Below, in pieces: positions 15,073 to 50,697 of a stretch of 51,085 nucleotides of DNA. The stretch spans positions 1 through 51,085 of the forward strand of contig JAPDLT010000004.1 of NCBI GenBank assembly GCA_025920435.1, in the 5' to 3' direction. Position 1 is the first letter of the stretch. The number at the start of each line of letters is the position of its first letter. The notes below the pieces were generated by a model. The model had not been told where the DNA came from, ran no database searches, and worked only from the letters and a program-made list of their open reading frames with translations. The stretch comes from Candidatus Rehaiarchaeum fermentans (GTDB taxonomy: Archaea; Nanobdellota; Nanobdellia; Parvarchaeales; Parvarchaeaceae). The translations under genes and the position numbers were made by a program.

Positions 15073-15097
15073 AAGGCAAAAATTGTGCCTTAATTCC
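15073..15097 (-). repeat. 3' arm of the 16S rRNA processing stem
   Basis: AAGGCAAAAATTGTGCC plus TTAATTCC is the reverse complement of 16597-16621 except for one base (24 of 25 pairs). On the minus-strand transcript the two arms bracket the 16S and would form a long helix. Archaeal pre-16S is excised from such a helix by the tRNA-splicing endonuclease at a bulge-helix-bulge; here only a single C-A mismatch interrupts the helix. Confidence 0.8.
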
Positions 15098-15112
15098 TTC
15101 CTCTTTTCATAA

Positions 15113-16602
15113 TTAAGAGGTGATCCAGCCGCACGTTCCCGTACGGCTACCTTGTGGCGACTTCGCCCTTCTCATCGAGATTTGATTCGATGCTTTGAGC
15201 ACCTCATCAAATCCCGACTTGACTGGCGTGACGGGCAGTGTGTGCAGGGGGCAGGGAAGTATTCACCGCGAATCGCTATTTCGCGGTTACTACGGATTCC
15301 GCATTCATGAGGCCGAGTTGCAGGCCTCAATCCTAACCAGGCTAGCGATTAGAGGATTGGCTTCTCCTTTCGGAGTTGCATCCCATTGCCGCTAGCAATG
15401 CGATACGCGTGTAGCCCAGGGCATTCGGGCCATACTGACCTGCCGTCGCCCTCACCTTCCTCCCCCTTTCGAGGGCAGTCTCTCTATTTTGCTCGCTCCC
15501 ACGAGGGCGTTAGCAAATAGAGATGAGGGTCTTGCTAGTTACCCGACTTAACGGGACGTTTCACAATACTAGCTGACGACGGCCATGCAGCACCTCTCAG
15601 CGCGTTAGCTAAGATCTTTAGTCTGAGCTTCATCCTGCTGTCGGCCCTGGTAAGGTTCCCGGAGTTGACTCCAATTGAACCGCATATCTCACCCGTTTTT
15701 GTGCCCCCCCGCCAATTTCTTTAAGTTTCGGCCTTGCGGCTGTACTCCCCAGGTGGCTCACTTAACGCCTTCGCTTAAGCACTGCAATTCCACGAGGGAA
15801 TTGCAACACTTAGTGAGCAGCGTTTACTGCTGGGGCTACCCGGGTATCTAATCCGGTTCGTTCTCCCAGCCTTCGTCCCTCACTGTCGGGTTCGTTCTAG
15901 GGAAGCGCCTTCGCCACTGCCGGTCTTCCATGGCTCGGTAGATTTGGCTCTTACCCATGGAGTACCCTTCCCTCCTCCCGACCCCTAGCTAAAGAATATA
16001 CGCACCAGCTGCTTGGTTGAGCCAAGCAATTTAAGTGCGTATGTCTTTAGCCAGCTACGGACGCTTTAGACCCAGTAAATGTGATGACCACTCGGGCTAC
16101 GGGTATTACCGCGGGTGCTGGCACCCGTTTACCCAGCCCTTATTCTCCATGCTATTTCATCGCATGGCAAAAGTAGCATTTCTAAAGAGAAATGCTACAC
16201 GAGGAGTTGCCCTGTCACGCTTACGCGCATTGCAGAGAATTCGGGACTGCTGCACGCCGAAGCGCTGGCGCCCTTGTCTCAGTGCGCCTCTGGGGGATAT
16301 AGCGCCAACTACCCCTACCCGTCTTAGGCTTGGTGGGCCGTTACCCCGCCAACTACCTGATGGGGCACAGACCAATCCTGTGGCGAACATAACGGCAACA
16401 GTTATGCTCTTTCGCAGTTAAATCATTCCAGAAATAACTGCTATCTTGGTTTACCCTCAGTTTCCCGAGGATATCCAAGACCACAGGGTATGTTATCTGT
16501 GTTTTACCTCAGCCGTCCGCCATCTGCCTTGCCGGCAGATAAAACTTGCATGTCTCAGCCCAACTCCTCTAGTGGTCATCTCCAGCAGAATCAACTGGAA
16601 TT
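15113..16602 (-). rRNA. 16S ribosomal RNA
   Basis: On the minus strand the gene starts ATTCCAGTTGATTCTGCTGG and ends GGATCACCTCTTAATT. Familiar blocks are present: GTGCCAGCACCCGCGGTAAT (530 loop), ATTAGATACCCGGGTAG (790 loop), GCATGGCCGTCGTCAG and AAGTCGCCACAAGGTAG. About 1,490 nt, no intron seen. Several near-universal positions are altered (see findings), and the 3' end lacks the standard CCUCC anti-Shine-Dalgarno. The gene is visibly GC-richer than its flanks. No 23S, 5S or tRNA follows on the transcript: the next gene downstream is a convergent Nudix hydrolase, so the rRNA genes are unlinked. Exact mature ends are estimates. Confidence 0.97.
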
Positions 16603-16621
16603 AGGGCACAATTTTTGCCTT
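16597..16621 (-). repeat. 5' arm of the 16S rRNA processing stem
   Basis: GGAATTAGGGCACAATTTTTGCCTT, partner of 15073-15097. The arm runs into the first bases of the mature 16S (AATTCC). Just upstream on the transcript are two leader hairpins: TGCATAC-AAA-GTATGCA (16624-16640) and AGCAAAGC...GCTTTGCT (about 16656-16677), probably part of the pre-rRNA leader fold. Confidence 0.8.
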
Positions 16622-16750
16622 CATGCATACTTTGTATGCACTCATTTCTCTCATAGCAAAGCTAAAAGCTTTGCTTTTAAACTGCAATTGGAGAGCTTTC
16701 TTCATTGCTGCAATTTATATTGCTAAGCTCAGATGCACTCCGCTATTGCA

Positions 16751-16787
16751 GATTTTATAAATTAGAATAACTAATATAAAAACTTTT
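16751..16787 (-). promoter_or_regulatory. Candidate 16S rRNA promoter
   Basis: Minus-strand reading gives AAAAGTTTTTATATTA and then AATTTATAAAATC, two overlapping TATA-like elements. Either would place transcription start around 16730-16752, giving a leader of about 130-150 nt before the mature 16S. The next gene upstream ends at 16794, so this is the only room for an rRNA promoter. Confidence 0.5.
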
Positions 16788-16793
16788 AATATT

Positions 16794-23572: not shown

Positions 23573-25312
23573 CTACTTTTTATACTTATTTAAATCTTCT
23601 ATTTCGAATGGCTCAAAAATCCTTCCATTCCCTTCATAAAACTTAGAAAGTGTTTCTACATAAAGAAGACGAGCACTTTGAATACCTGGCTCAAAAGAAA
23701 TAAGCAAAATATTAAATATTTGAGCCAGAATTAAAACCAATATAGAAACAAGAAATCCTGAAATAGAATGAGAATGAAGTATTCCTAAATCGGCAACATA
23801 AGCAATTACTACAGAAGAAAGAAGTATTCCTGCAATTCTAAGAAAAGAAAGTGTATGACTTACTACACTTATTAGGTCTATTAGATTTGATTTTTTCTCG
23901 AGAAAGATCAGGAAAATTAATGAAGTTATAAGGAGAAAGTAAGAAAAGTAAGCCAATGAACTGTAAAAACTAAGTTTGTTAAATAAATTATATCCTATAA
24001 TGCCTACACTGAGAGTAAGTAAAGCCCAGAATATTTTAGTTATTCCTTCTCTAAAATTACTGTTATAAAAAGAATTATAAGATCCTAAAAGAAAACCGAC
24101 AATTACTACAATTATTCCGATAAATCCACTAATTTCTAAAAGCAAGAAAATTTGCTTAAAAGGATTAATTAAAGGAGAATAAGGCAACTGAAAGCCAAAA
24201 TATTCATTAAAAAATATTCCAAATATTATAGCTATTAAGGAAGTGATAATCATTATTTTTGATAAATTATAAAGTGTTTCTCTCTTCATAAAAGTGTAGA
24301 AAAAAGACTTAATAAAGGAAGGTACCTTGAAATTCCATTTTCTAGAAATTTTTAGATAAATTAATAAGAATAATAAGAAAAATAAAGATCCATATCCAAC
24401 ATCCCCAATCATCATTCCTGCCATGAAAGGAAAGAGCACAATAAATAGAAAAGAAGGATCTATATCTCTATAATTAGGTATGGAGTAAAAGTTTACCAAG
24501 GTTTCTACGGGTTTAATCAATTTATGATCTATTAAAGAAGGAGGTTCCTCTTTAGTCTCAGAAATCTGTAAGTAAAACTTTATATTATTTTTATGAAGTA
24601 AATCTTCCAAATAAGTTAACTTTTCAGTAGGAATCCAAAAGCTTAATTTTACAAAGTTTTCAGATTTATCTGAAGAAATAAAGACATCAATTTTCTTTAT
24701 TTCATTTCTTAGTTTTGCAGAAAAGTATGAAACATATGGTGAAATTTGCTTTATCAATTTACTTTCTTCCTTCTTTCTATAAATAATCAATTTTTCAAGT
24801 TTTTCCTTTTCTTTTTTAAGTATTATTCTTTCGTTTTTTACGCTCGATATATTTGGAATTATTCTTATATTTTTGAGTTTATTTATTTCTTCTGGCCTTA
24901 CAAATTGCAATGATTTTCCATTTTCATCAATTACTAAAACAGGTATAAAATTTATGTCATATATTGCTGAAAAATTGATTTCAGAATTTAACAAATTTAA
25001 TGTTTCTAATTCATTATTAATTTCTCTATATCTTGAATTTAGCTTATCTATTTCTTTTCTTAATTTATCCAAAGACTCTAATTTTCTTTGAATGTAATTA
25101 AGTGAAGCTTTTTTATTGCCATTTGCTTTGATTTTAGAAATTTCGGTTAACAACCTTTCATATTTTTCTTTTTCTGAAATTATTCCTACATCACTGCCTT
25201 TTCCTTTAACTATCTGAACAATACCTTCTTTACCTATTACTTCAAGTACTTTATTTAAAGAAGATCTAAGCAAGAAAAGATCAACAAAATAAAGTCTTTT
25301 AGGTCTTATCAT
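23573..25312 (-). CDS. atpI: A-type ATP synthase subunit I (a-subunit)
   Basis: I use the ATG at 25312 (MIRPKRLYFVD); the track's 25318 is a TTG. Soluble coiled-coil N-terminus to about residue 275, then seven or so membrane helices. FPFMAGMMIGDVGYGSLFF is the conserved start of the membrane part, and FLRIAGILLSSVVIA near the end contains the essential Arg of the ion half-channels. 579 aa, somewhat shorter than common 620-660 aa homologues. Last gene of the ATP synthase operon, overlapping subunit H by 14 bp. It forms the ion path against the K ring. Confidence 0.93.
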   Translation of the reverse strand: MIRPKRLYFVDLFLLRSSLNKVLEVIGKEGIVQIVKGKGSDVGIISEKEKYERLLTEISKIKANGNKKASLNYIQRKLESLDKLRKEIDKLNSRYREINNELETLNLLNSEINFSAIYDINFIPVLVIDENGKSLQFVRPEEINKLKNIRIIPNISSVKNERIILKKEKEKLEKLIIYRKKEESKLIKQISPYVSYFSAKLRNEIKKIDVFISSDKSENFVKLSFWIPTEKLTYLEDLLHKNNIKFYLQISETKEEPPSLIDHKLIKPVETLVNFYSIPNYRDIDPSFLFIVLFPFMAGMMIGDVGYGSLFFLLFLLIYLKISRKWNFKVPSFIKSFFYTFMKRETLYNLSKIMIITSLIAIIFGIFFNEYFGFQLPYSPLINPFKQIFLLLEISGFIGIIVVIVGFLLGSYNSFYNSNFREGITKIFWALLTLSVGIIGYNLFNKLSFYSSLAYFSYFLLITSLIFLIFLEKKSNLIDLISVVSHTLSFLRIAGILLSSVVIAYVADLGILHSHSISGFLVSILVLILAQIFNILLISFEPGIQSARLLYVETLSKFYEGNGRIFEPFEIEDLNKYKK

Positions 25313-25607
25313 TTTCAAATAAGTATTTTTCCACTATTCTTCTAATTTCTTCTTTATCTAAAACTTTAATTTTATTGGCTAAATCAATATATTTCTTCGC
25401 TTCCTTCTTTCCTTCTTCTTCTCCTTTCTTTCTACTTTCTTCAATTAATCTATCTTTTAAAAGATTCGCTTCATTTTCCGTTTCGGTAATAATTTCTTTA
25501 GCTTTAGCCTTTGCTTCTTCTATTTCTTTTTCACTCCTTTGTTTTTCTTTTTCCAACAATTCTTTAAGCTTTTCTTCTTCTTTAGATAATTCTTCAATAC
25601 TAACCAT
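25299..25607 (-). CDS. atpH: A-type ATP synthase subunit H (peripheral stalk coiled coil)
   Basis: 102 aa, almost entirely charged helix (KEKQRSEKEIEEAKAKAKEI). It partners subunit E in the right-handed coiled-coil peripheral stalk. In many archaea H heads the operon; here it sits between D and I. Weak sequence identity is normal for this subunit, and the call rests on composition and position. Overlaps D by 8 bp and I by 14 bp. Confidence 0.8.
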   Translation of the reverse strand: MVSIEELSKEEEKLKELLEKEKQRSEKEIEEAKAKAKEIITETENEANLLKDRLIEESRKKGEEEGKKEAKKYIDLANKIKVLDKEEIRRIVEKYLFENDKT

Positions 25608-26190
25608 ACTTATACTTAATTAATCTAGATTTTTCTTCTAGTTCTAAATTGTCTAAAGTTTCGATAATTTCCTTAATTTTTCTTTGACGTTCAGGAATTA
25701 TGATTCTTTCAATTGCATTTATTTTTCTATTTATATCAAATATTTCTAAAAGAAGTTTCTTCAAATTAATTTCTCGTTGTGCTAACTCAATTATTTCTTT
25801 AGCTAGCTTATAAAATTTTTCGTAAGCCAACTTAACTTCATTAGGAAGATTTTGATCTAGAATTTGATTTATTTGAGGAATTACATTAAATAAAGGTATT
25901 CCTAATACGCTATCTTTTTCAACTTGAAAATTCGCATGCTGTATTTCTACAGAATATCTATTAAATGCAACTTTACCATTAAGGGCAATTGCTAAAACTA
26001 AAGCATCTTTAGCTTCTTTAATTAAATTTGCATTGTATTCTTTTATATTCTTGCTTTCTTGTAGTAGTTCTATAAATTTTTTTATTAGTCTACTCCTACT
26101 TGACTTTAGAAGCTCAGCACTATCTTTTATAAACTTTAAATCTTCTTTTTCTTTTATTAAAGCTCCTCTACTCTTTGTTCCACTTTCCAT
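25600..26190 (-). CDS. atpD: A-type ATP synthase subunit D (central stalk)
   Basis: 196 aa. Long N- and C-terminal helices form the rotor shaft. [15 protein letters not shown] near the start and [20 protein letters not shown] near the end are the family blocks (the latter the 'T.RrvNaLE.v.iP' motif). Rotates inside the A3B3 head. Overlaps B by 23 bp. Confidence 0.92.
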
Positions 26191-27538
26191 ATTTGTTAAT
26201 AAATTCTTGCTTTAATCTTGTTAGTCTTTCTGGCTTAATTTCGCTTAAAACTTCCCAACCTTTATTAAGAGTGTTTTCTATTCCTCTTCTTTCATTAAAT
26301 CCTTGATTTATAAATTCCTTTTCAAATTTTCTACCAAATCTTATTAATGATAAATCATCTTCACTTAATGCACCTTCTCCAACCAATTCCATTAATCTAC
26401 TAACTTCTATATATTCTGAATAACTTGCAAATAATTGACTAGAAAGAGAACTGTGATCCTCTCTTGTTTTTCCTTTTCCTATTGCATTATTCATCATTCT
26501 AGAAATAGAAGAAAGAATATCTATAGGAGGGTAAATACCTAACTTATGTAGTCTTCTGCTCAGTGTTATTTGGCCTTCAGTTACATAACCTGTTAAATCA
26601 GGAATTGGATGAGTTATATCATCTTGTGGCATAGTTAAAATAGGTATTTGAGTAATAGATCCTTTCTTTCCCTTTAAAACTCCGCTCCTCTCGAATATAC
26701 TTGCCAAATCCGTATACATATATCCTGGGTATCCTCTTCTTCCTGGTATTTCCTTTTTTGCAGAGGAAATTTCTCTCAAAGTTTCACAGTAATTTGTAAT
26801 ATCTGTAAGTATAACAATTACATCATATCCTTTTTCGTAAGCAAGATATTCAGCAGTAGTTAAAGCAATTCTAGGTAATAGTATTCTCTCAATAGAAGGA
26901 TCTGAAGCTAAATTTATAAAGGAAACTGTTTTCCTTAATAAACCTCTTTCTCTGAATTCATTTATTAAAAATCTTGCTTCATCGCTATTCACTCCCATTG
27001 CACCAAAGACTATTAAAGTATTATCAGATACTTTAGCCTGAGAAGATATTTGAACAGCAATTTTGTTGTGGGGCAAACCAGAGCCAGAAAATAATGGTAA
27101 TTTTTGACCTTTTGCAAGTGTAATTAAACCATCGATAACTGATATACCCGTTTCAACAAAACTGTTAGGAGTTTCTCTTGCATAAGGATTAATTGGGTAT
27201 CCATTAACATCATATTCTTCTCCTTTGATTATTGATGGTCCGTTATCTATTGGATAAAATCTTCCGTTAAATATTCTTCCTATTAGCTCTTCATTCAACT
27301 TTATTGAATACGGTTTGCCTTTAGGTAGAATTCTTACACTTTTCGGATCTAAACCTAACATATTTCCAAAAACTTGAATAACAGAAATGTTTGAACTTGC
27401 ATCTATTATTTGACCTTCTAAACTACCTAAATTGCTGAAAATTTTTACAACCTCATTATATTTAGGAGCTTCTAACCCTTCTACAAAAATTAAAGAGCTA
27501 TCTACTTGAGTAATATTACTATATTCTTTGTAAATCAT
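26168..27538 (-). CDS. atpB: A-type ATP synthase subunit B (regulatory nucleotide-binding)
   Basis: 456 aa, normal length. [18 protein letters not shown] is the degenerate P-loop typical of [17 protein letters not shown] and [22 protein letters not shown] are strongly conserved. Together with A it forms the hexameric head. The translated start overlaps the 3' end of A by 20 bp. Confidence 0.97.
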
Positions 27539-29219
27539 AGCTTAATTTCTCAAATTCTTTTTCTATTTCATCATCCTTCATAATTTTCATTTTCAAAATA
27601 GTTTGTACAAAATCATTATCCTTTATTTCATCAAATTTCTGACCTTTCAATATCTTATCCATTTCTTTATCGTACAACAATTTTATAGCTTTAACAATAA
27701 TATATTGTTTCTTTAATGAAGAATATGCATCATTTTCATCAAATGCACTTTGTATTAAAAATCCTTCCTTTATCAATCTTGCAATTTTGAGTGTTTCTTT
27801 TTCTTGATCTGGTAAAGCATTAAATCCAACTAGGTTTGCAATTTGTTGTATTTCGTCACTCTTATTTAATGTATTTAAAATCCACTCTCTTAAAAACTTG
27901 TAATCATTTCCTACACTTTTTTTAAACCACTCTTCTAAGTCATCAATGTAAAGCGAATAACTTATTCCCCAATTAATTGCTGGATAATGTCTTGAATATG
28001 CAAGTTTTGCATCGAGCCCCCAAAAGCACCTTACTAAACGCAAGGTATTTTGAGAAACAGGATCGGATAAATCCCCTCCCGGAGGAGAAACAGCTCCAAT
28101 AACAGTTACGCTTCCTTCCTTTCCAGACAATGTTTTTACTTTTCCTGCTCTTTCATAAAATTCTGCAAGCCTACTCCCTAGATAAGAAGGATATCCTTCT
28201 TCTCCAGGCATCTCTTCCAATCTTCCTGAAATCTCTCTCAATGCTTCTGCCCATCTAGATGTACTATCTGCCATAACAGAAACTTTATATCCTAAATCTC
28301 TAAAATACTCTGCAATTGTTATTCCTACATATATACTTGCCTCTCTCGCAGCTACAGGCATGTTAGAAGTATTTGCTATGAGTACAGTTCTTTGTAACAA
28401 AGGATTTCCATTACTATCTACTAAATTAGAAAAGCTTTCCAAAAGATCTGCCATTTCATTACCTCTCTCCCCACAACCTACATATACAACAATATCACTA
28501 CTAGCCCATTTAGCCAATTGATGCTGCAAAACTGTTTTACCAGAACCAAATGGCCCAGGAATTGCTGCTTTCCCTCCTTCTCCAATAGGAAACAAAAAAT
28601 CTATAACGCGTTGACCTGTTACTAAAGGAGATTTTATATCTAACTTTGATAAATACGGTCTTGGCTTTCTTATAGGCCATCTTTGATATAGAAAAACTTC
28701 TTTATTTTCGATAGTACAAATAGGGTCTTTTACTGTAAAAGAACCTTCTTTAATTGAGTTAACCTCTCCATGAAAACCCAAAGGGACAAGTATAAAATGA
28801 TCAATATTTCCCTCTCTTACTTTTCCAATTATTTGTCCTTCTCTTACTTTATCCCCTTTTTTAACGAGCGGATAAAAATCCCATTTTTTATTCGTATCTA
28901 AAGGAAAATAATCTTCTTTTCCATGAATAAATATGCCTTCTTTACTAAGCATAGAATCTAAAGCTCTTTGCAATCCATCATAAATTTTACCTAACATCCC
29001 TGGCCCCAAAACTACTGACAAAGGAAAGTGAGTCTCTTCAACTTCTTCTCCTACTCCTAAAGAAGAAGTGTCTTCATAAGCTTCTATAAAAAATTCCTTT
29101 CCCCTTATTCTTATTACTTCTCCAATTATTCTTTTTTTCCCTAGTCTTACTACTTCTCCAATTCCTGAACTCAATCCTTCAGCAACAACTAATGGACCAG
29201 AAATTCTCTTTATTGCCAT
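27519..29219 (-). CDS. atpA: A-type ATP synthase catalytic subunit A
   Basis: 566 aa, no intein. The catalytic Walker A is [11 protein letters not shown], slightly different from the common GPFGSGKTV of the family and fully consistent with activity. [32 protein letters not shown] and [13 protein letters not shown] follow. The non-homologous insert typical of A subunits (about residues 115-190) is present. The start overlaps F by 10 bp. Confidence 0.98.
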
Positions 29220-29497
29220 AAATTATTTGGATCTATGCCTAATATTTTTTTAGTAAGATTTAGAACGTCTTCCTTTTCTCTTAGCAAAATAAAAATAGGT
29301 TTAGTAATACTTATTAATTTTGCTTCTAAATCTTCTGGAATGCCTTCTGCTATTTCTTTATCTACTATAACAATATCATAGTCCAAAAATTTGTTGTAAG
29401 ATTTTACAAATTCTTCTTTATTGATTATTTCACCATCTAAACCAACCATTCTCATTCCAATAACAAACTCTTCATCCCCTAAACAAATAACTTTCAT
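29210..29497 (-). CDS. atpF: A-type ATP synthase subunit F
   Basis: The ATG at 29497 (MKVICLGDEEFVIGMRMVG) replaces the track's TTG at 29509. Subunit F is a Rossmann-like central-stalk regulator; the opening I.vlGD.d...GFrl.G pattern and the ending IFILLREKE fit. 95 aa is close to the usual ~100. Lies between C and A, as in other archaeal operons. Confidence 0.88.
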   Translation of the reverse strand: MKVICLGDEEFVIGMRMVGLDGEIINKEEFVKSYNKFLDYDIVIVDKEIAEGIPEDLEAKLISITKPIFILLREKEDVLNLTKKILGIDPNNLWQ

Positions 29498-30191
29498 ATA
29501 ATTTATCAATTAATTCTACTTTATTTTTCAATTTTAAATAAATTATCCCTCTGATCAAGTTTATTTGATTTTCTAAAAGAATTAAATAATATAAGGCAAC
29601 CCTTACATCGTTATAGTAAGAAAGATATATTACGTTTTCTTTTGAAAGATACTTGGAAATTGAAAAACCAGCTTTTGTTATAGTATTGTCAAGATTCTTG
29701 ATATAAAAATCTTCTAATAAATTGAAAAGTTTTGGATAATCTTGAGTATATAAGGACGGAGAAAATCTTTCTGCTAAGAAATTAACTATTTCATTGATAT
29801 TTGAATTTATTAAAGAAATATAATCTAACTTATTTATAGTTGTCATACCAACAAATCTGTTAATTACTTCAATTTTTCTATCTGAAATCTTTATTTCTTC
29901 CTTGAGTAACTTCGCAGATATTATTGCTTTTATGTTTTCTAAATCAAATTTTAATAAATAAGAGGAAAGAACTTTTCTATCTAAAGGGTCTGCGAGAAGG
30001 TAAAGATCTTGTGCTTCTTTAAAAAAATAATTTAAAGAGTTGGCTTCAAATTCTTCTATATTATCTGAAACATAATTTATTTCATCTTTTATTTGAGAAA
30101 TGCTCTTCTCTTTTAGTGAAAGTAATTTTTCTTTGCTCATTAAATTGCTGATTTTAGCTCTGCTTGCTCCCACTAAGCTCATATATTTCAT
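29472..30191 (-). CDS. atpC: A-type ATP synthase subunit C, shortened
   Basis: Links the central stalk to the K ring. 239 aa, against roughly 340-390 in most archaea, so about one of the three helical-bundle repeats seems to be missing. YVGASRAKI-like SLVGASRAKISNLMSKEKLL near the start, LLKFDLENIKAIISAKLL and NDVRVALYYLILLENQINLI at the end fit the family. Position between E and F agrees. Overlaps E by 29-38 bp depending on which of two ATGs is used. Confidence 0.82.
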   Translation of the reverse strand: MKYMSLVGASRAKISNLMSKEKLLSLKEKSISQIKDEINYVSDNIEEFEANSLNYFFKEAQDLYLLADPLDRKVLSSYLLKFDLENIKAIISAKLLKEEIKISDRKIEVINRFVGMTTINKLDYISLINSNINEIVNFLAERFSPSLYTQDYPKLFNLLEDFYIKNLDNTITKAGFSISKYLSKENVIYLSYYNDVRVALYYLILLENQINLIRGIIYLKLKNKVELIDKLYESYLFRG

Positions 30192-30690
30192 TTAAAATTT
30201 TATCAATTTTTTCGGAAAGTATAGTATCAAAACTAAAATCTAATATTTGAGTTCCTTTTTTTGCAATAATTCCTCCTATAATGCTTATTTCTTTTGCCCC
30301 TTTTATAAAGGAAATATCTCTTTTATTTACGTAAATTTCGTAGTCAGAAAATTTACTAGCTAAATTTTTCATAAAATTCTTATATTTTTCTGTTTGAGTG
30401 ATTTCTTCTGCAATGGAATAAATTTGATTAACATATTCCTTTTCTACCTCTCCGGCTTTTGAAAGATAATAATCAATACCTTCCTGCACTTTCATTTCTT
30501 TAGACTTAATATATTCTTGATCAGCTAAGATTTTAGCACTCTCTAAAATATCTTTCTTTATTTTCTCAGCTCTTTCTTTTGCTTCATTTATTATTTTAAT
30601 CTTTTCTTCCTCAGTCCTTTTATTTATCTCTTCTATTTCTTTCTTTTTTTCCTTTATTAACTCTTCTAACAACTCCTTTACATCGCTCAT
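30154..30690 (-). CDS. atpE: A-type ATP synthase subunit E (peripheral stalk)
   Basis: 178 aa: a charged N-terminal coiled coil (EEEKIKIINEAKERAEKIKK) and a globular C-terminal part with GGIIAKKGTQILDFSFDTIL, the E-subunit signature (GGv...dg...vd.tl). Begins one base after the K stop. Pairs with H. Confidence 0.92.
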   Translation of the reverse strand: MSDVKELLEELIKEKKKEIEEINKRTEEEKIKIINEAKERAEKIKKDILESAKILADQEYIKSKEMKVQEGIDYYLSKAGEVEKEYVNQIYSIAEEITQTEKYKNFMKNLASKFSDYEIYVNKRDISFIKGAKEISIIGGIIAKKGTQILDFSFDTILSEKIDKILNEIYELSGSKQS

Positions 30691-30912
30691 TTAAAGTATA
30701 TTCAGCAAAATCATTAGCGCTACTACAAATCCTATTATCCAAAGTGTTTCTGGCAATACGAAAAATAGAAGTACTTTACCTAGCATATCCGGTTTCTCTG
30801 CTATAACTCCCATTCCAGAAGATCCAACTCCGCTTTGAGCAATACCTGTACCTATAAGACCTCCCGCCAATGCAATTGCAGCTGCAATTGCTTCACTCCC
30901 ACTAATCACCAT
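30691..30912 (-). CDS. atpK: A-type ATP synthase subunit K (c-ring proteolipid)
   Basis: 73 aa, one helical hairpin. Helix 1 is ALAGGLIGTGIAQSGVG, helix 2 contains FVLPETLWIIGF with Glu55 as the ion-carrying carboxylate. Gln26 in helix 1 and the ET pair in helix 2 resemble the Na+-binding pattern of some rings, but several usual partners differ, so ion choice is open. First gene of the operon; it lacks the duplicated hairpin seen in some archaea. Confidence 0.93.
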   Translation of the reverse strand: MVISGSEAIAAAIALAGGLIGTGIAQSGVGSSGMGVIAEKPDMLGKVLLFFVLPETLWIIGFVVALMILLNIL

Positions 30913-30940: not shown

Positions 30941-31180
30941 GCTTTATTAACTTCTTTGTTAACTTTTAAATTATAGGGTCTTAAATTCTTTTTAAGAAAT
31001 CTATTATGTAAGGGGAGAGCTTAACCTTTATTATTTTGGCTAAAAAGATTTTCAAAAAAGATTGTTTAAGTAATTAGTAAATATTTTAATTAAATCAAGG
31101 TGAATTAATTAAAAAAAACTAAGTTGAAATTTATAAGTTATAATTAAAAAGCAGAAAAAATAACTAACTCTTAAATAAAT

Positions 31181-31573
31181 TCATCCTATCAAATCTTTCT
31201 TAAGAGTTTTGAAGTAAGACACTAAATCAGTCCTAGTCTTGTCGAAATAAGATTTTAAGTCTACCTTTAATGTATTGAAGTAAGGTTTAAAGTATGTCTT
31301 TATTTCAGTAGGCAATTTACGTAAGTCTTCTATTACGGTTTTATAAGATGATTTTAAATCATTTTTTATTTGAGCAGGAATTTGCCCTAAATCCTTCTTA
31401 AGTGTATTGTATGCATTCAAAAAGTCGGATTTTAATGTATTATATATTTGACGAAAGTAAGATCCTATTTGACGAAAGTAAGATCCTCCCAAAGAGTTGC
31501 TTTGCTCTCCTCCACTTGCTTTTAATTTATCTGCCAGAGTTTCATTTTTAGTTGTTGGCTTTTCACTTCCCAT
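31181..31573 (-). CDS. 11-residue-repeat amphipathic helical protein (unrecognised)
   Basis: 130 aa. After a Ser/Gly-rich N-terminus, residues about 40-128 are tandem 11-mers of the form xxxYxTLKxDL: LNAYNTLKKDL, GQIPAQIKNDL, KSSYKTVIEDL, RKLPTEIKTYF, KPYFNTLKVDL, KSYFDKTRTDL, VSYFKTLKKDL. Pro appears in every third repeat or so. An 11-residue period gives a helix with one constant lipophilic face, as in apolipoproteins, perilipins, synucleins and some LEA proteins. No signal peptide or membrane helix. No family recognised. It has its own TATA box and follows aIF1A. A 21-bp tandem duplication encodes GSYFRQI twice. Lipid-surface or protein-filament binding is an inference from the repeat. Confidence 0.75.
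   Translation of the reverse strand: MGSEKPTTKNETLADKLKASGGEQSNSLGGSYFRQIGSYFRQIYNTLKSDFLNAYNTLKKDLGQIPAQIKNDLKSSYKTVIEDLRKLPTEIKTYFKPYFNTLKVDLKSYFDKTRTDLVSYFKTLKKDLIG
31446..31487. repeat. Tandem 21-bp duplication
   Basis: ATTTGACGAAAGTAAGATCCT occurs twice back to back (31446-31466 and 31467-31487) with no mismatch, encoding GSYFRQI-GSYFRQI in frame. Identity at the DNA level implies a recent slippage event in the repeat protein gene. Confidence 0.95.
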
Positions 31574-31595: not shown

Positions 31596-31605
31596 TATTT
31601 ATATC
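31596..31605 (-). promoter_or_regulatory. TATA box of the 11-mer repeat protein gene
   Basis: Minus strand AAAAGATATAAATACT, centred about 27 bp before the ATG at 31573. A good archaeal TATA consensus within the 47-bp gap after aIF1A, so the gene is probably expressed independently and leaderless. Confidence 0.55.
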
Positions 31606-39692: not shown

Positions 39693-40754
39693 ATGAAAGC
39701 CGAAGAAAGTCCTTCATTGAAACCTGCTAGCAATTTTAATGATTATGCAAAAAATATAGAAAACTTTAACAAGTCATTAAACAGTGCATTTTTAAACGTA
39801 TATAAAAAAATAAACGAAATCGAAAATTCAGTAGATAACATAAAAAAGTTGACAGACAAAATAAATGAAATAGAAAACTCTATAAAAACTCTAAAGACTC
39901 TATCTAGCAAAGATATAGATTCTATAGTTAATGAATTATATTCTCAACTGCAAAATAAAGTAATTAATACTCAAATAAATAAGGAAGAAATAATTAACAT
40001 AATAAAAGCGCAATATGATCAAAGAATTAATCAATATGAACAAAAAATAAATCAAATTTATGATTATGTAAGCAAAGTGGGACAAGCTGTTAATTCCATA
40101 GTTGAAAAAGTAAATCAAAACACTGATTCTATAAACAAATTAAATGATGCTTTGAATTCAAAGAATGCAGAGCTTTCTAAATCTGTATCAGAAATAGAAA
40201 AAGAAGTAAGAGATCTTAATGATGAAGTCAAGAAACAAATTAATAATTTAAATGAAAATCATCAAAAGGAAAATGAAGAAATACAAAATAAACTAAATGA
40301 ATTAGAAGGAAAAACTGCAAAGATGAGCGAAGATTTATATAAAGGCATACCTCAATTAAATGACCTGGCTCAAAGAACAACAACAATTGAACAAAAGTTA
40401 TCTTCCATAGAAGCAACAATAGAGAGATTGACTTCGGTTTTAAATTCAGACACATTAGACATATCTACATTTAAAACACGAATAGACACAATGGCATCTC
40501 AAATGAACGCTCTTAATGATGTAATAAATAAAGCACAACAAGATATATTAGAATTTGTCAAAGATTCTACTTCACTCGTTGGAATATTATCCAGGATCAA
40601 TCCGGATGCAATTCAGACTTCTATAAAAACATTAGAAAATGAGCTTAGTTCAACTCAACAGCAAGTTAATAAATTAGTTGATCTAATAAATACAATGCAA
40701 AAAGAATTAGCAGAGCTTAAAGCAAAATCAATTACAAACTTACCTAAGCAATAG
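39693..40754 (+). CDS. Long coiled-coil protein, unrecognised
   Basis: 353 aa, almost entirely heptad-patterned helix with Ile/Leu at a/d positions and Asn/Gln/Lys/Glu elsewhere. No signal peptide, membrane helix or ATPase motif. The N-terminal 20 residues (KAEESPSLKPASNFNDY) look disordered. It ends in SITNLPKQ and is 3 bp from the winged-helix gene, so the two form an operon. Structural or scaffold role possible. The N-rich coiled coil does not match SMC, Hsp or flagellar proteins in any motif I recognise. Confidence 0.75.
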   Translation: MKAEESPSLKPASNFNDYAKNIENFNKSLNSAFLNVYKKINEIENSVDNIKKLTDKINEIENSIKTLKTLSSKDIDSIVNELYSQLQNKVINTQINKEEIINIIKAQYDQRINQYEQKINQIYDYVSKVGQAVNSIVEKVNQNTDSINKLNDALNSKNAELSKSVSEIEKEVRDLNDEVKKQINNLNENHQKENEEIQNKLNELEGKTAKMSEDLYKGIPQLNDLAQRTTTIEQKLSSIEATIERLTSVLNSDTLDISTFKTRIDTMASQMNALNDVINKAQQDILEFVKDSTSLVGILSRINPDAIQTSIKTLENELSSTQQQVNKLVDLINTMQKELAELKAKSITNLPKQ

Positions 40755-40757
40755 ATT

Positions 40758-41198
40758 ATGGAAGGAGATAAGCCATTATTTTCGATCGAATTGAATGAAT
40801 TTGAAAAACCAACTGGAGATTATAAAGTAGATCTTAGAAGGCTTGCAATATCTCTAGGATTATTAAGACCGGGAGATAAAAGAACAGCTATAGTAGAAAT
40901 ACTCGATATATTATTGCAAGAAAGGAAAAATAAGCCTGAAGGATTAAATAGTGTAGAAATAACTTCAAAAATATACGAAAGAGGAATAAGCATAGTTTAT
41001 GCAAATATACTCAGAGATCTAAGAAAATTGATAAATTTAGGAATAGTTGAAAACATAAACAAAAGATATAGAATAAAGGAAAACCTCTCCCTCCAAGAAA
41101 TTTTAGATAAATACGTTAAACCATATGTTATTGACAGAATATACTCTAAAATAAAAGAATACGCAACTGCAGTAGAACTGGAGAATCCTAAAAAGTAA
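40758..41198 (+). CDS. Winged-helix protein downstream of the coiled-coil gene
   Basis: 146 aa. A winged helix covers about residues 40-115: RTAIVEILDILLQER, NSVEITSKIYERGISIVYANILRDLRKLINLGIVENIN and RYRI. The ISIVYANILRDLRKLINLG recognition region is a good helix-turn-helix. Flanks are helical. It could regulate the coiled-coil operon or bind chromatin. Converges with the 569-aa gene (11-bp overlap). Confidence 0.65.
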   Translation: MEGDKPLFSIELNEFEKPTGDYKVDLRRLAISLGLLRPGDKRTAIVEILDILLQERKNKPEGLNSVEITSKIYERGISIVYANILRDLRKLINLGIVENINKRYRIKENLSLQEILDKYVKPYVIDRIYSKIKEYATAVELENPKK

Positions 41199-42897
41199 TC
41201 CAAGCTCTTTTTACATCTTCATAAAATTTTCGAAGTGTATCTTTAGAAATAAACCTGGCTGTATCAATTATTTCTTGAGGACCATATTTTTTAATTAATT
41301 TTTCATTAATTTTATCCGGATCTAATTTTGATTGCTGACTAGGAACTAAAAAATTACTTAAATCTTCTACTGCGCCATAAATACTCAAAAAATCATTTTT
41401 GAAGGTTTCATAAAAATCATGTTTAAAAGAATTGTAAATATCTAAAAACATAGAAGATTGCTTCTTTTGCTCTTTCTTTTCTTCCTTCTGCTCTTTTTTA
41501 TCAAATTCAGCAATCAAATTTTGCATATCTTTATCAATTGCTTCCAAAGAACTCTTAAGACCGTACTGTTCAAATACTGTTTTTTGAAGCTTTAATGCAA
41601 TTGCTTTATTTAATAAATTCCATTCGGAAGGAAGAAATGCAAAAGAATAAAAGTTAAGCGAAACTCCTCCTTGATATATTTCTGGAAATGATTGAGGAAT
41701 TGTATATGGTCTAGATGAGTAATTTGGAATAGAAGAAAAATTAAATTCTACATCTAACTTTAATGCAGTTATAAATTTAGGACCTATCTTTGCTAATCTT
41801 CTAGCTTCATATGTAGCATCATCTTCATTTGGCAATTTACTAAACGAAGGAACAGGTTTAGGAGAAACCGCTACAATTTTTTCTACCCCTCTTTCACCAA
41901 ATACCTTTCTCTTAATTATTCTAAGTGCTCTATAATAACTTTCTGAAAAACCGAGAAAAGAAAAAGAAAGTTTAAATTTATCAAAAAATGTATCTCCCAC
42001 TCCTTGCATAAAGTCCTTTTCACTACCTACTGTCCTTATCTGCATTCTATTCCTCAAATTTATATATTCTGCTGCTTGAGCTACATACATTTTATAGGAA
42101 GCATATTCCATTTTTAGTTGGTTTACAGTTATCTGAAATCTTGTCCTTAATTCTTGTTCTGCATATTTTTTCCAGATCAAATATTCTTGAAATCTAGGCA
42201 ATACGATTCCCTTTATTTTATTGTTATAATCTAATTTGTCCTTTGCACTTGCATCATTTACACCCGGCTTAGGCAAGAGTCTGTCTATGTCCTTTTCTCC
42301 ATTTGCAGCATAGAAAAGAGAAAGTACCGGCATGTTTGCTCGTTGAGATATTTGCAACAGCGAATCTGGCCCTCTCCTTGCATCAACATTATCGATCCAA
42401 ATTTGCTTTAAAGTACGCTCTGCAGCTTCTGCCTCACTACCTCCCTTCTTTAATTTATCAAAGAGCTCGATTCTTTCTTTTAGAGTTCTAGCTTCATAAA
42501 AAAGACGCTCTATTAATTTAGTCAAATTGTAAATAGTGCTAAGTATATTACTAATTCTATCATCTAAAATAGATCGTCTTGTTAAAAGAGTAACTAAATA
42601 ATTAGAAAAAGCAGAAGGTTCTATGCCTTCATACATTTTCAATTGCTTAAATCTGTATTTTCCATAAATTTTCCCAACAAAGTCTATTAGTTTTGAGGCA
42701 GTATTAAGCGAATCAATATCAAATTTTAAAGATACTTCTGGAGAAGGACTTCCTTTTATCTTTCGTTTTCTGGCTTGTGGATTCTGCCCGATAAACATTA
42801 AATTATTTATCAAATCATCCAATTCTGAAATGGAAAACTTGTTTAAATCGTCAGTAGTAAGCTCCTCTATCTTTTTTTTAGAAGTACCTTTTTCCAT
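41188..42897 (-). CDS. Unrecognised 569-aa protein
   Basis: No family recognised. Roughly 1-320 is helical and charged, then a folded region with beta segments (FNFSSIPNYSSRPYTIPQSFPEIYQGGVSLNFYSFAFLP part) and a Lys/Gln/Glu linker (QKEEKKEQKKQ) followed by an amphipathic stretch DIYNSFKHDFYETFKNDFLS. IYNSFKHDF is close to IYNTLKSDF in the 130-aa repeat protein, suggesting a shared surface or partner. No signal peptide or membrane helix. Promoter region: CATTTTAATAATTTG about 26 bp before the ATG. A lineage-specific protein is likely. Confidence 0.75.
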   Translation of the reverse strand: MEKGTSKKKIEELTTDDLNKFSISELDDLINNLMFIGQNPQARKRKIKGSPSPEVSLKFDIDSLNTASKLIDFVGKIYGKYRFKQLKMYEGIEPSAFSNYLVTLLTRRSILDDRISNILSTIYNLTKLIERLFYEARTLKERIELFDKLKKGGSEAEAAERTLKQIWIDNVDARRGPDSLLQISQRANMPVLSLFYAANGEKDIDRLLPKPGVNDASAKDKLDYNNKIKGIVLPRFQEYLIWKKYAEQELRTRFQITVNQLKMEYASYKMYVAQAAEYINLRNRMQIRTVGSEKDFMQGVGDTFFDKFKLSFSFLGFSESYYRALRIIKRKVFGERGVEKIVAVSPKPVPSFSKLPNEDDATYEARRLAKIGPKFITALKLDVEFNFSSIPNYSSRPYTIPQSFPEIYQGGVSLNFYSFAFLPSEWNLLNKAIALKLQKTVFEQYGLKSSLEAIDKDMQNLIAEFDKKEQKEEKKEQKKQSSMFLDIYNSFKHDFYETFKNDFLSIYGAVEDLSNFLVPSQQSKLDPDKINEKLIKKYGPQEIIDTARFISKDTLRKFYEDVKRAWITF

Positions 42898-49967: not shown

Positions 49968-50296
49968 ACGGGATAATAATAGATACTAATGAAATAGTTT
50001 ATGCAATAAAAAATAAAATCGATATTTACCAATTATTTTTAAGCTCAGACTTTCCACTTAAATTCTTTACAACATCAGAAAATATAAAAGAATTAAAAAA
50101 ATTTGGAATAGATATAAATCCATTAAAAGTAAAAATAATACCTGCTAAGGGCAAAACGGATGAAGAAATAATACGAATAGCAAAAGAAAAAAATTTATTA
50201 ATATTTACAGAAGACAAGGAACTTGCCCTTAAAGCTAAAAAACTAGGATTAAAGGCAGTTAAACTTAAAAATAAGAAATCAATCGAGTTTTATTGA
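49958..50296 (+). CDS. PIN-domain protein (Fcf1/Utp24-like context)
   Basis: The ATG at 49958 (MRINGIIIDTNEIVYA) replaces the track's 49934, which is inside aIF2 gamma. 112 aa. IIIDTNE and TDEEIIRIAKEKNLLIFTEDKELA supply the acidic residues of a PIN RNase (D...T, E/D...D). aIF2 gamma followed by a PIN protein is a conserved archaeal arrangement linked to 18S/16S processing factor Fcf1; that role is inferred from position. Meets the SepF gene tail-to-tail. Confidence 0.82.
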   Translation: MRINGIIIDTNEIVYAIKNKIDIYQLFLSSDFPLKFFTTSENIKELKKFGIDINPLKVKIIPAKGKTDEEIIRIAKEKNLLIFTEDKELALKAKKLGLKAVKLKNKKSIEFY

Positions 50297-50697
50297 GGAA
50301 TTTCTGGATTAGAAGGGGGATTTGAAGTGGGCAATGCTCCTTTTTCTATCTTTACAAATGATGGTGCAACCACAAATAATGTTTCGTCAATACCTACTAT
50401 CTGTGCCCCAACTGCATCTGCAGTTTTCTTTATCTTAGCTAAAAATCTTGTGAACTCATCATTATCTTTATTCTTTAATTCGCTACTTTTAATTATCACT
50501 ATAGAACTTCCTCCTCTTATTTCTTCTACTATCGTATCTGAATCTTCATATTTAGAAACGGAGTAAACTTTAACGTAAAGCTTAGGTACCGGTTCTGTTT
50601 CCTTTTCAATCTGAAGCTCTACATATTCGTTTTTATCTACATTCTCTTGTACTTTAACTGTTTTTTTGAATAAGTTCAATGGATTTATAGAGACCAT
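50290..50697 (-). CDS. sepF: SepF-like cell division protein (DUF552)
   Basis: 135 aa. The N-terminal MVSINPLNLFKKTV resembles the amphipathic membrane-targeting helix of SepF. The core YVKVYSVSKYEDSDTIVEEIRGGSSIVII...FLAKIKKTADAVGAQIVGIDETLFVVAPSFVKIE fits archaeal SepF, the membrane anchor of FtsZ. A Pro-rich tail follows. FtsZ is not in the window. Confidence 0.85.
   Translation of the reverse strand: MVSINPLNLFKKTVKVQENVDKNEYVELQIEKETEPVPKLYVKVYSVSKYEDSDTIVEEIRGGSSIVIIKSSELKNKDNDEFTRFLAKIKKTADAVGAQIVGIDETLFVVAPSFVKIEKGALPTSNPPSNPEIPQ

Follow-up and report, generated by a model that had tools for sequence, protein, structure and literature searches.

The well-studied long amphipathic helices of 11/3 periodicity come mostly from animals and plants, and a narrow literature search recovered no description of such a helix in an archaeon. 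In perilipin 4, the charge layout of the helix governs the stability of the coat, an effect proposed to operate via lateral helix-helix contacts (PMC8064757), and in gas vesicles GvpC lies on the repetitive shell (PMC10185304). Here, we analyzed a gene located on a 51,085-bp stretch of Candidatus Rehaiarchaeum fermentans, of the order Parvarchaeales (contig JAPDLT010000004.1; hereafter, the window), encoding a 130-residue protein that we refer to as the orphan protein. Eight 11-residue repeats in its C-terminal part share one hydrophobic face at a pitch of 98.0 degrees, and the sequence most likely describes a rod that binds a surface, for which a lipid is a plausible candidate. The source genome (547 kb, 78% complete) was the only member of its genus in our sample, and the organism is probably a tiny, host-dependent archaeon.

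The repeat array and its gene

The orphan gene is read from the minus strand; no strand had been named in the initial annotation. Residues 1-30 of its product form a low-complexity linker, whereas residues 31-130 are predicted to form an amphipathic helix. From residue 44 onwards, we identified eight contiguous repeats, namely, YNTLKSDFLNA, YNTLKKDLGQI, PAQIKNDLKSS, YKTVIEDLRKL, PTEIKTYFKPY, FNTLKVDLKSY, FDKTRTDLVSY and FKTLKKDLIG, the last of which has 10 residues. The array follows the consensus [YF]xT[LI]KxD[LF]xxx up to residue 130 with zero indels, in agreement with the approximately eight consecutive 11-mers (xxxYxTLKxDL) previously proposed from reading the sequence. Self-identity within the repeat region was 0.289 at offset 11, a value that none of 20,000 shuffles attained at any of the offsets examined (2-39).

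Over the 87 residues of the array, the hydrophobic moment is maximal (0.458) at 98.0 degrees per residue and decreases to 0.320 at 100 degrees and 0.083 at 102.9 degrees; none of 5,000 shuffles matched the maximum (highest shuffled value, 0.38). A continuous hydrophobic face at the 11/3 pitch, on which the initial annotation had staked its reading beforehand, is thus present. Since the 11-residue unit corresponds to exactly three turns, all eight units show one and the same face. The prolines noted earlier as punctuating the series include Pro66 and Pro88, which both occupy position 1 of their repeats, on the hydrophobic face and 22 residues apart, and the register continues across the two of them without a phase slip; a third proline of the array, Pro97, occupies position 10. 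The moments of long coiled coils encoded in the corresponding loci of relatives equal or exceed this value (0.44-0.56), but most of them have their maximum closer to 101-104 degrees, and it is therefore the pitch, not the strength of the moment, that sets the orphan array apart.

On a helical wheel drawn at 98.18 degrees, the repeat positions follow the order 1, 5, 9, 2, 6, 10, 3, 7, 11, 4, 8. The adjacent positions 1 (Y/F/P), 4 (L/I/V), 8 (L/F) and 11 (A/I/S/L/Y) form one hydrophobic strip, with a basic edge on one side and an Asp edge on the other. Position 5 is basic in seven of the eight repeats (K in six, R in one) and position 7 is D in seven of eight, while position 3 is mostly T and position 9 is mixed, with four basic residues. 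Relative to the hydrophobic centre, the basic and acidic charges are centred at +116 and -103 degrees, respectively. The array has a moment of 0.46, a hydrophobic fraction of 0.39, an aromatic fraction of 0.14 and a charged fraction of 0.31; the net charge is +7. The composition of the orphan protein also departs from that of the window genes in its K:R ratio (7.5 versus 2.7), its D:E ratio (4.0 versus 0.59) and its Thr content (10.3% versus 3.7%).

Among repeats that share an amino acid, the same codon was observed in 47 of 91 pairs, versus 49 expected from codon usage. Because the synonymous sites are approximately randomised while the amino acid pattern persists, the array is, judging from its codons, old and under purifying selection, with no recent expansion at the DNA level. 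By the same reckoning, the 21-bp tandem duplication that precedes the array is the sole recent event (Table 1).

The TATA box lies in the 47-nt gap that separates aIF1A from the orphan gene, and the T-tracts belong to a 268-bp AT-rich gap between the orphan gene and that of ATP synthase subunit K. Based on this upstream TATA box and these downstream T-tracts, the gene looks like a single-gene transcription unit, in accordance with the promoter of its own that the initial annotation had placed between the aIF1A gene and the operon of the ATP synthase, and archaeal promoter geometry predicts a near-leaderless mRNA. C-ending codons for Phe, Tyr, Asn and Asp reach a fraction of 0.44 in the orphan gene, the highest among 21 window genes (0.09-0.33 in the other 20). 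This codon choice suggests strong expression of the protein, which would fit a coat.

Table 1. Coordinates in the window of the orphan gene, its signals and repeats, and the protein with a similar motif
Feature	Position	Strand	Basis or remarks
Orphan coding sequence, 130 residues	31181..31573	-	No Cys or Trp; pI 9.6
Eight contiguous 11-residue repeats, residues 44-130	31184..31444	-	Autocorrelation; moment peak at 98.0 degrees; randomisation of synonymous codons from repeat to repeat
Two exact 21-bp copies (heptads GSYFRQI GSYFRQI) ahead of the 11-mers	31445..31487	-	100% matches
TATA box TATAAATA, 30 nt 5' of the ATG, preceded by purine-rich AAAAG (BRE-like)	31596..31603	-	Sequence inspection
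T-tracts TTTTTTCTGCTTTTT past the stop codon, terminator-like	31145..31161	-	Sequence inspection
569-residue protein, Parvarchaeales family without known domain	41188..42897	-	Homologue, Pfam, NCBIfam and PDB searches
DIYNSFKHDF-YETFKNDF, tandemly doubled DIYxSFKxDF motif with key residues as in the orphan 11-mer	41389..41442	-	Motif and profile scans

No convincing homologue of the orphan protein was found in its own genome, in 31 other genomes of the order or in viral contigs, nor was any found in GTDB contigs, in a scan that covered close relatives only. In 377 genomes of the class and in 55 relatives, only weak matches to coiled-coil-like or unrelated proteins were obtained. The best of these (E = 4.5e-6, a 995-residue coiled-coil ORF of genome G047) and the remainder were rejected as apparent shared composition where the frame was recoverable, the matched proteins being long coiled coils or unrelated. 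The matches in Pfam, NCBIfam and PHROGs, which included prominin, ApoA-II and apolipoprotein A1/A4/E, were all sub-threshold or uninformative; no match was found to a LEA group 3 or synuclein profile in Pfam (to E = 10) or NCBIfam, or to perilipin in Pfam at E ≤ 10. In the PDB, the best match by sequence was weak (the 11-mer protein 6h9l, E = 0.036), followed by ApoA-I chains at E = 0.14 and worse. With no protein family reaching its curated cut-off, these searches confirm that, by sequence, the orphan protein is unrelated to any known family. Single-sequence AlphaFold2 predicted helices at residues 29-62, 67-94 and 99-129 (pLDDT 62.7, pTM 0.41), and a Foldseek search with this model gave nothing below E = 2.6; a confident match to a soluble helical-bundle family, the other observation that had been named in advance as decisive against the original reading, did not appear. 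The 11-mer architecture, its pitch, the lack of a family and the separate transcription unit described in the initial annotation all stand. In contrast, its suggestion of heat protection has little support: reverse gyrase was not found in the 78%-complete genome, where just a sub-threshold match to the topoisomerase part was detected, and the reading as a hyperthermophile protein was set aside.

A putative surface coat

Since all eight units face one way, the orphan protein appears to be built to lie along a surface. The reading that we favour, if tentatively, is that of a membrane or lipid-surface coat made of amphipathic rods packed side by side. The gene product would be a cytoplasmic, rod-like amphipathic helix of approximately 90-100 residues whose strip of Leu, Ile, Phe and Tyr (positions 1, 4, 8 and 11) would rest on the inner face of the membrane or on another lipid surface, with firm binding arising as the sum of many weak units. 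The Lys edge (position 5) of one rod could pair with the Asp edge (position 7) of the next, aligning the rods laterally, an arrangement also suggested for perilipin 4. We infer the helicity in the cell, the lipid nature of the surface and the lateral packing of the rods.

The unbroken register at 98.0 degrees counts in favour of this reading, as does the retention of a basic residue at position 5 and of Asp at position 7 in seven of eight repeats despite randomised synonymous codons. The moment, hydrophobic fraction and charged fraction of the array fall within or close to the values tabulated for 11-mer helices that bind lipids, and its aromatic fraction is higher. The corresponding values (moment, hydrophobic, aromatic and charged fractions) are 0.39, 0.40, 0.065 and 0.35 for ApoA-I, and 0.48, 0.32, 0.10 and 0.49 for CCT-alpha (PMC5889406). 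The net charge of +7 would suit an anionic surface. Additionally, Glu and Ala together amount to 5% of the orphan protein, versus 14-32% in the coiled-coil controls, namely, 6h9l, AtpE and a 353-residue protein encoded in the window. Two observations weigh against a lipid coat. The opposite charges of the edges would equally fit helix-helix contacts, and their layout is similar in 6h9l (+123/-151 degrees versus +116/-103 degrees in the orphan protein). Moreover, the single-sequence model splits the array into three helices at a pLDDT of 62.7, which would permit a bundle. A HeliQuest-type discriminant, which exceeds 0.68 in 84% of the repeat windows, is driven by net charge; it was dropped as evidence either way because ApoA-I itself fails it (3-7% of windows).

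Parvarchaeales have been reported to lack the genes needed to synthesise membrane lipids themselves (PMC10134863). For this reason, the orphan protein, if it does lie on a surface and is well expressed, would provide a handle on envelope management in a minimal, host-dependent cell.

The motif of the 569-residue protein and other readings

The likeness of the orphan 11-mer to a conserved motif, DIYxSFKxDF, in the family of a 569-residue protein is, to this analysis, the new element. It was first noticed by eye as IYNSFKHDFYETFKNDF towards the C-terminus of the window member of this family, encoded 10 kb from the orphan gene and adjoining the gene of a nucleotidyltransferase-like 356-residue protein. 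Members of this family occur in every one of the 31 other genomes of the order, and 20 of the 23 genera sampled in the class have one; the family gave no match above the cut-off or of any weight in Pfam, NCBIfam or the PDB. In all 29 relatives inspected, the motif [DE][IV][YF]x[SA]F[KR]xD follows a Lys/Glu-rich stretch; across 20 aligned relatives, its Ile, Phe and second Asp are invariant, and its first Asp, Tyr and Lys are conserved in at least 90%. As a DNA pattern, it matches nearly every Parvarchaeales genome, mostly once in each, while the reversed control matches almost none. When folded alone as a single sequence, the tail of the 569-residue protein is modelled as a single long helix containing the motif (pLDDT 85).

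Across the whole genome, a pattern for the motif gave 11 matches, four in the orphan protein, two adjacent to each other in the 569-residue tail and five elsewhere, versus four for the reversed control. When the 14,348 window decamers were scored with a profile built solely from the 29 relatives of the 569-residue protein, orphan repeat 1 came second (14.8 bits), after the 569-residue protein itself, and was surpassed by only three of 140,459 background decamers, all at one MCM site. Reciprocally, the orphan profile placed the 569-residue tail first among non-self 11-mers of the window (15.1 bits; next, 9.4 bits). Searches with either whole protein did not recover the other. These results hint at a common binding surface, with convergence as a possible explanation of the likeness.

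This motif is the basis of a second reading, in which eight DIYxSFKxDF-like helices on one face of a rod form a multivalent docking array that would engage a protein surface of repeating units or bring copies of a partner together. Each 11-mer would then be a copy of the helix by which the 569-residue family binds a partner once, and the architecture would be comparable to that of GvpC on the gas vesicle shell. The mutual recovery of the two motifs by the reciprocal scans is in its favour, as are the wide distribution of the DNA pattern and the fact that the motif is doubled in the 569-residue protein of the present genome alone. Its Lys and Asp are kept invariant or nearly so at an overall identity of approximately 27%, which suits a specific protein contact, and if such a contact is what their conservation means, the docking array would be favoured. 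Nevertheless, the link was spotted by eye before it was tested, convergence is possible for so short and amphipathic a motif, and the two copies in the 569-residue protein (relatives have a single one) are 8, not 11, residues apart. We consider this reading rather unlikely, and no more or less plausible than the coiled coil discussed below. Its more specific form, a genus-specific docking rod that arose by tandem amplification of the DIYxSFKxDF helix and organises the partner of the 569-residue protein, is slightly more doubtful still; if true, a linear motif would have given rise to a lineage-specific scaffold. Should the motif instead be a membrane-binding helix, the lipid coat and the docking array would merge into one. 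The common motif offers a concrete entry to a widespread family without a known function.

With the same limited plausibility, the strip could be the core of a right-handed (hendecad) coiled coil, i.e., a parallel homo-oligomer forming a stalk or filament with interhelical Lys/Asp salt bridges. The 3-4-4 spacing, with hydrophobic residues at positions 1, 4 and 8 of almost every one of the eight repeats, obeys the hendecad rule, as does the Leu in the centre of the core, and the best, albeit weak, PDB match, 6h9l (E = 0.036), has a pitch of 98.4 degrees and a similar charge layout. However, two prolines would fall on the core face, with a third at residue 97, and the combination of 14% aromatics with almost no Glu or Ala is unlike 6h9l, AtpE and the 353-residue protein. 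The coiled-coil ORFs of comparable moment at the relatives' loci, in turn, mostly peak at the higher angles given above. The 353-residue protein (39693-40754, plus strand), a long coiled coil encoded near the 569-residue protein gene, has many sub-threshold matches to coiled-coil families; apolipophorin-III (E = 2e-5) and a phasin-like family are among them.

An improbable alternative is a soluble, antiparallel three-helix bundle, apolipophorin-like in its lipid-free state, in which the repeats would be relics of its origin. The single-sequence model breaks near Gly63-Pro66 and Pro97, and Foldseek matched it weakly to the designed three-helix bundle 9rgz (TM 0.40/0.48, E = 5.3). However, the confidence of the model is low, and the exact 11-residue register crosses both of the putative loops, a regularity for which a bundle would have no need.

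Many archaeal ATP synthase operons carry H and I upstream of subunit K. Because the orphan gene precedes that of K and hendecads are discussed in connection with peripheral stalks (review PMC6131620), the protein was considered as a divergent subunit H of the A-type ATP synthase peripheral stalk. It has no V-ATPase_G or AhaH match, and the operon (23573-30912, minus strand; order K-E-C-F-A-B-D-H-I) already carries both genes at its end instead of the usual start. The likely H is located at 25299-25607 (AhaH, E = 6.6e-5; V-ATPase_G_2, E = 0.006) and I at 23573-25318 (E = 4e-23), and the reading as subunit H was therefore rejected. Finally, a non-coding ORF or chance periodicity, suggested by the failure of the sequence searches to find a homologue, is hardly credible given the shuffle tests, the codon evidence of purifying selection and the promoter and terminator signals.

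Elsewhere in the window, a homologue of SepF, the archaeal membrane anchor of FtsZ, is encoded at 50290-50697 on the minus strand (Pfam, E = 3.5e-11). The region 15073-16793 contains no convincing ORF of at least 100 residues except for a GTG-start ORF at 16035-16421, Arg/Pro-rich and of unusual composition, and possibly corresponds to rRNA or another RNA.

Comparison with known amphipathic repeat helices

The exchangeable apolipoproteins (PF01442 and PF04711) resemble the orphan protein in their 11/22-mers near 98 degrees and in prolines placed 22 residues apart. The profile matches were weak, at E = 0.028 for ApoA-II (PF04711; 15.3 bits versus a cut-off of 27) and E = 0.14 for ApoA1/A4/E (PF01442; 12.3 bits versus 90). 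Unlike these proteins, the orphan protein has no evident secretion signal and carries Pro on its hydrophobic face. It also departs from the class A layout, with both interfaces basic and the polar centre acidic, in having its basic and acidic centres on opposite sides (+116 and -103 degrees).

Hendecad right-handed coiled coils, exemplified by 6h9l, have in common with the orphan protein the period of 11, the 3-4-4 core spacing and the charged edges, but this protein differs from them in being aromatic-rich and Glu/Ala-poor and in having prolines on the strip. Regarding GvpC of gas vesicles, no match of the orphan protein was found in Pfam, and GvpA gave no match in the genome at E = 0.01, in a search whose controls were equally silent. 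GvpC is likewise a rod-like amphipathic repeat helix, with a 33-residue unit that is a multiple of 11 and an uneven distribution of charge (PMC10185304).

The perilipin 4 helix is vastly longer, is conserved as 33-mers and has an aromatic fraction of 0.002 versus 0.14. The orphan protein uses Leu, Phe and Tyr, contains prolines and has neither a PAT nor a 4-helix-bundle domain, and no sequence relation to perilipins was found. The traits in common with the perilipins are limited, in this 130-residue protein, to the 11-mer periodicity and the charge bias. In the latter respect, the preference for K over R and for D over E, together with the one-sided placement of the basic residues, is as described for perilipin 4 (PMC8064757).
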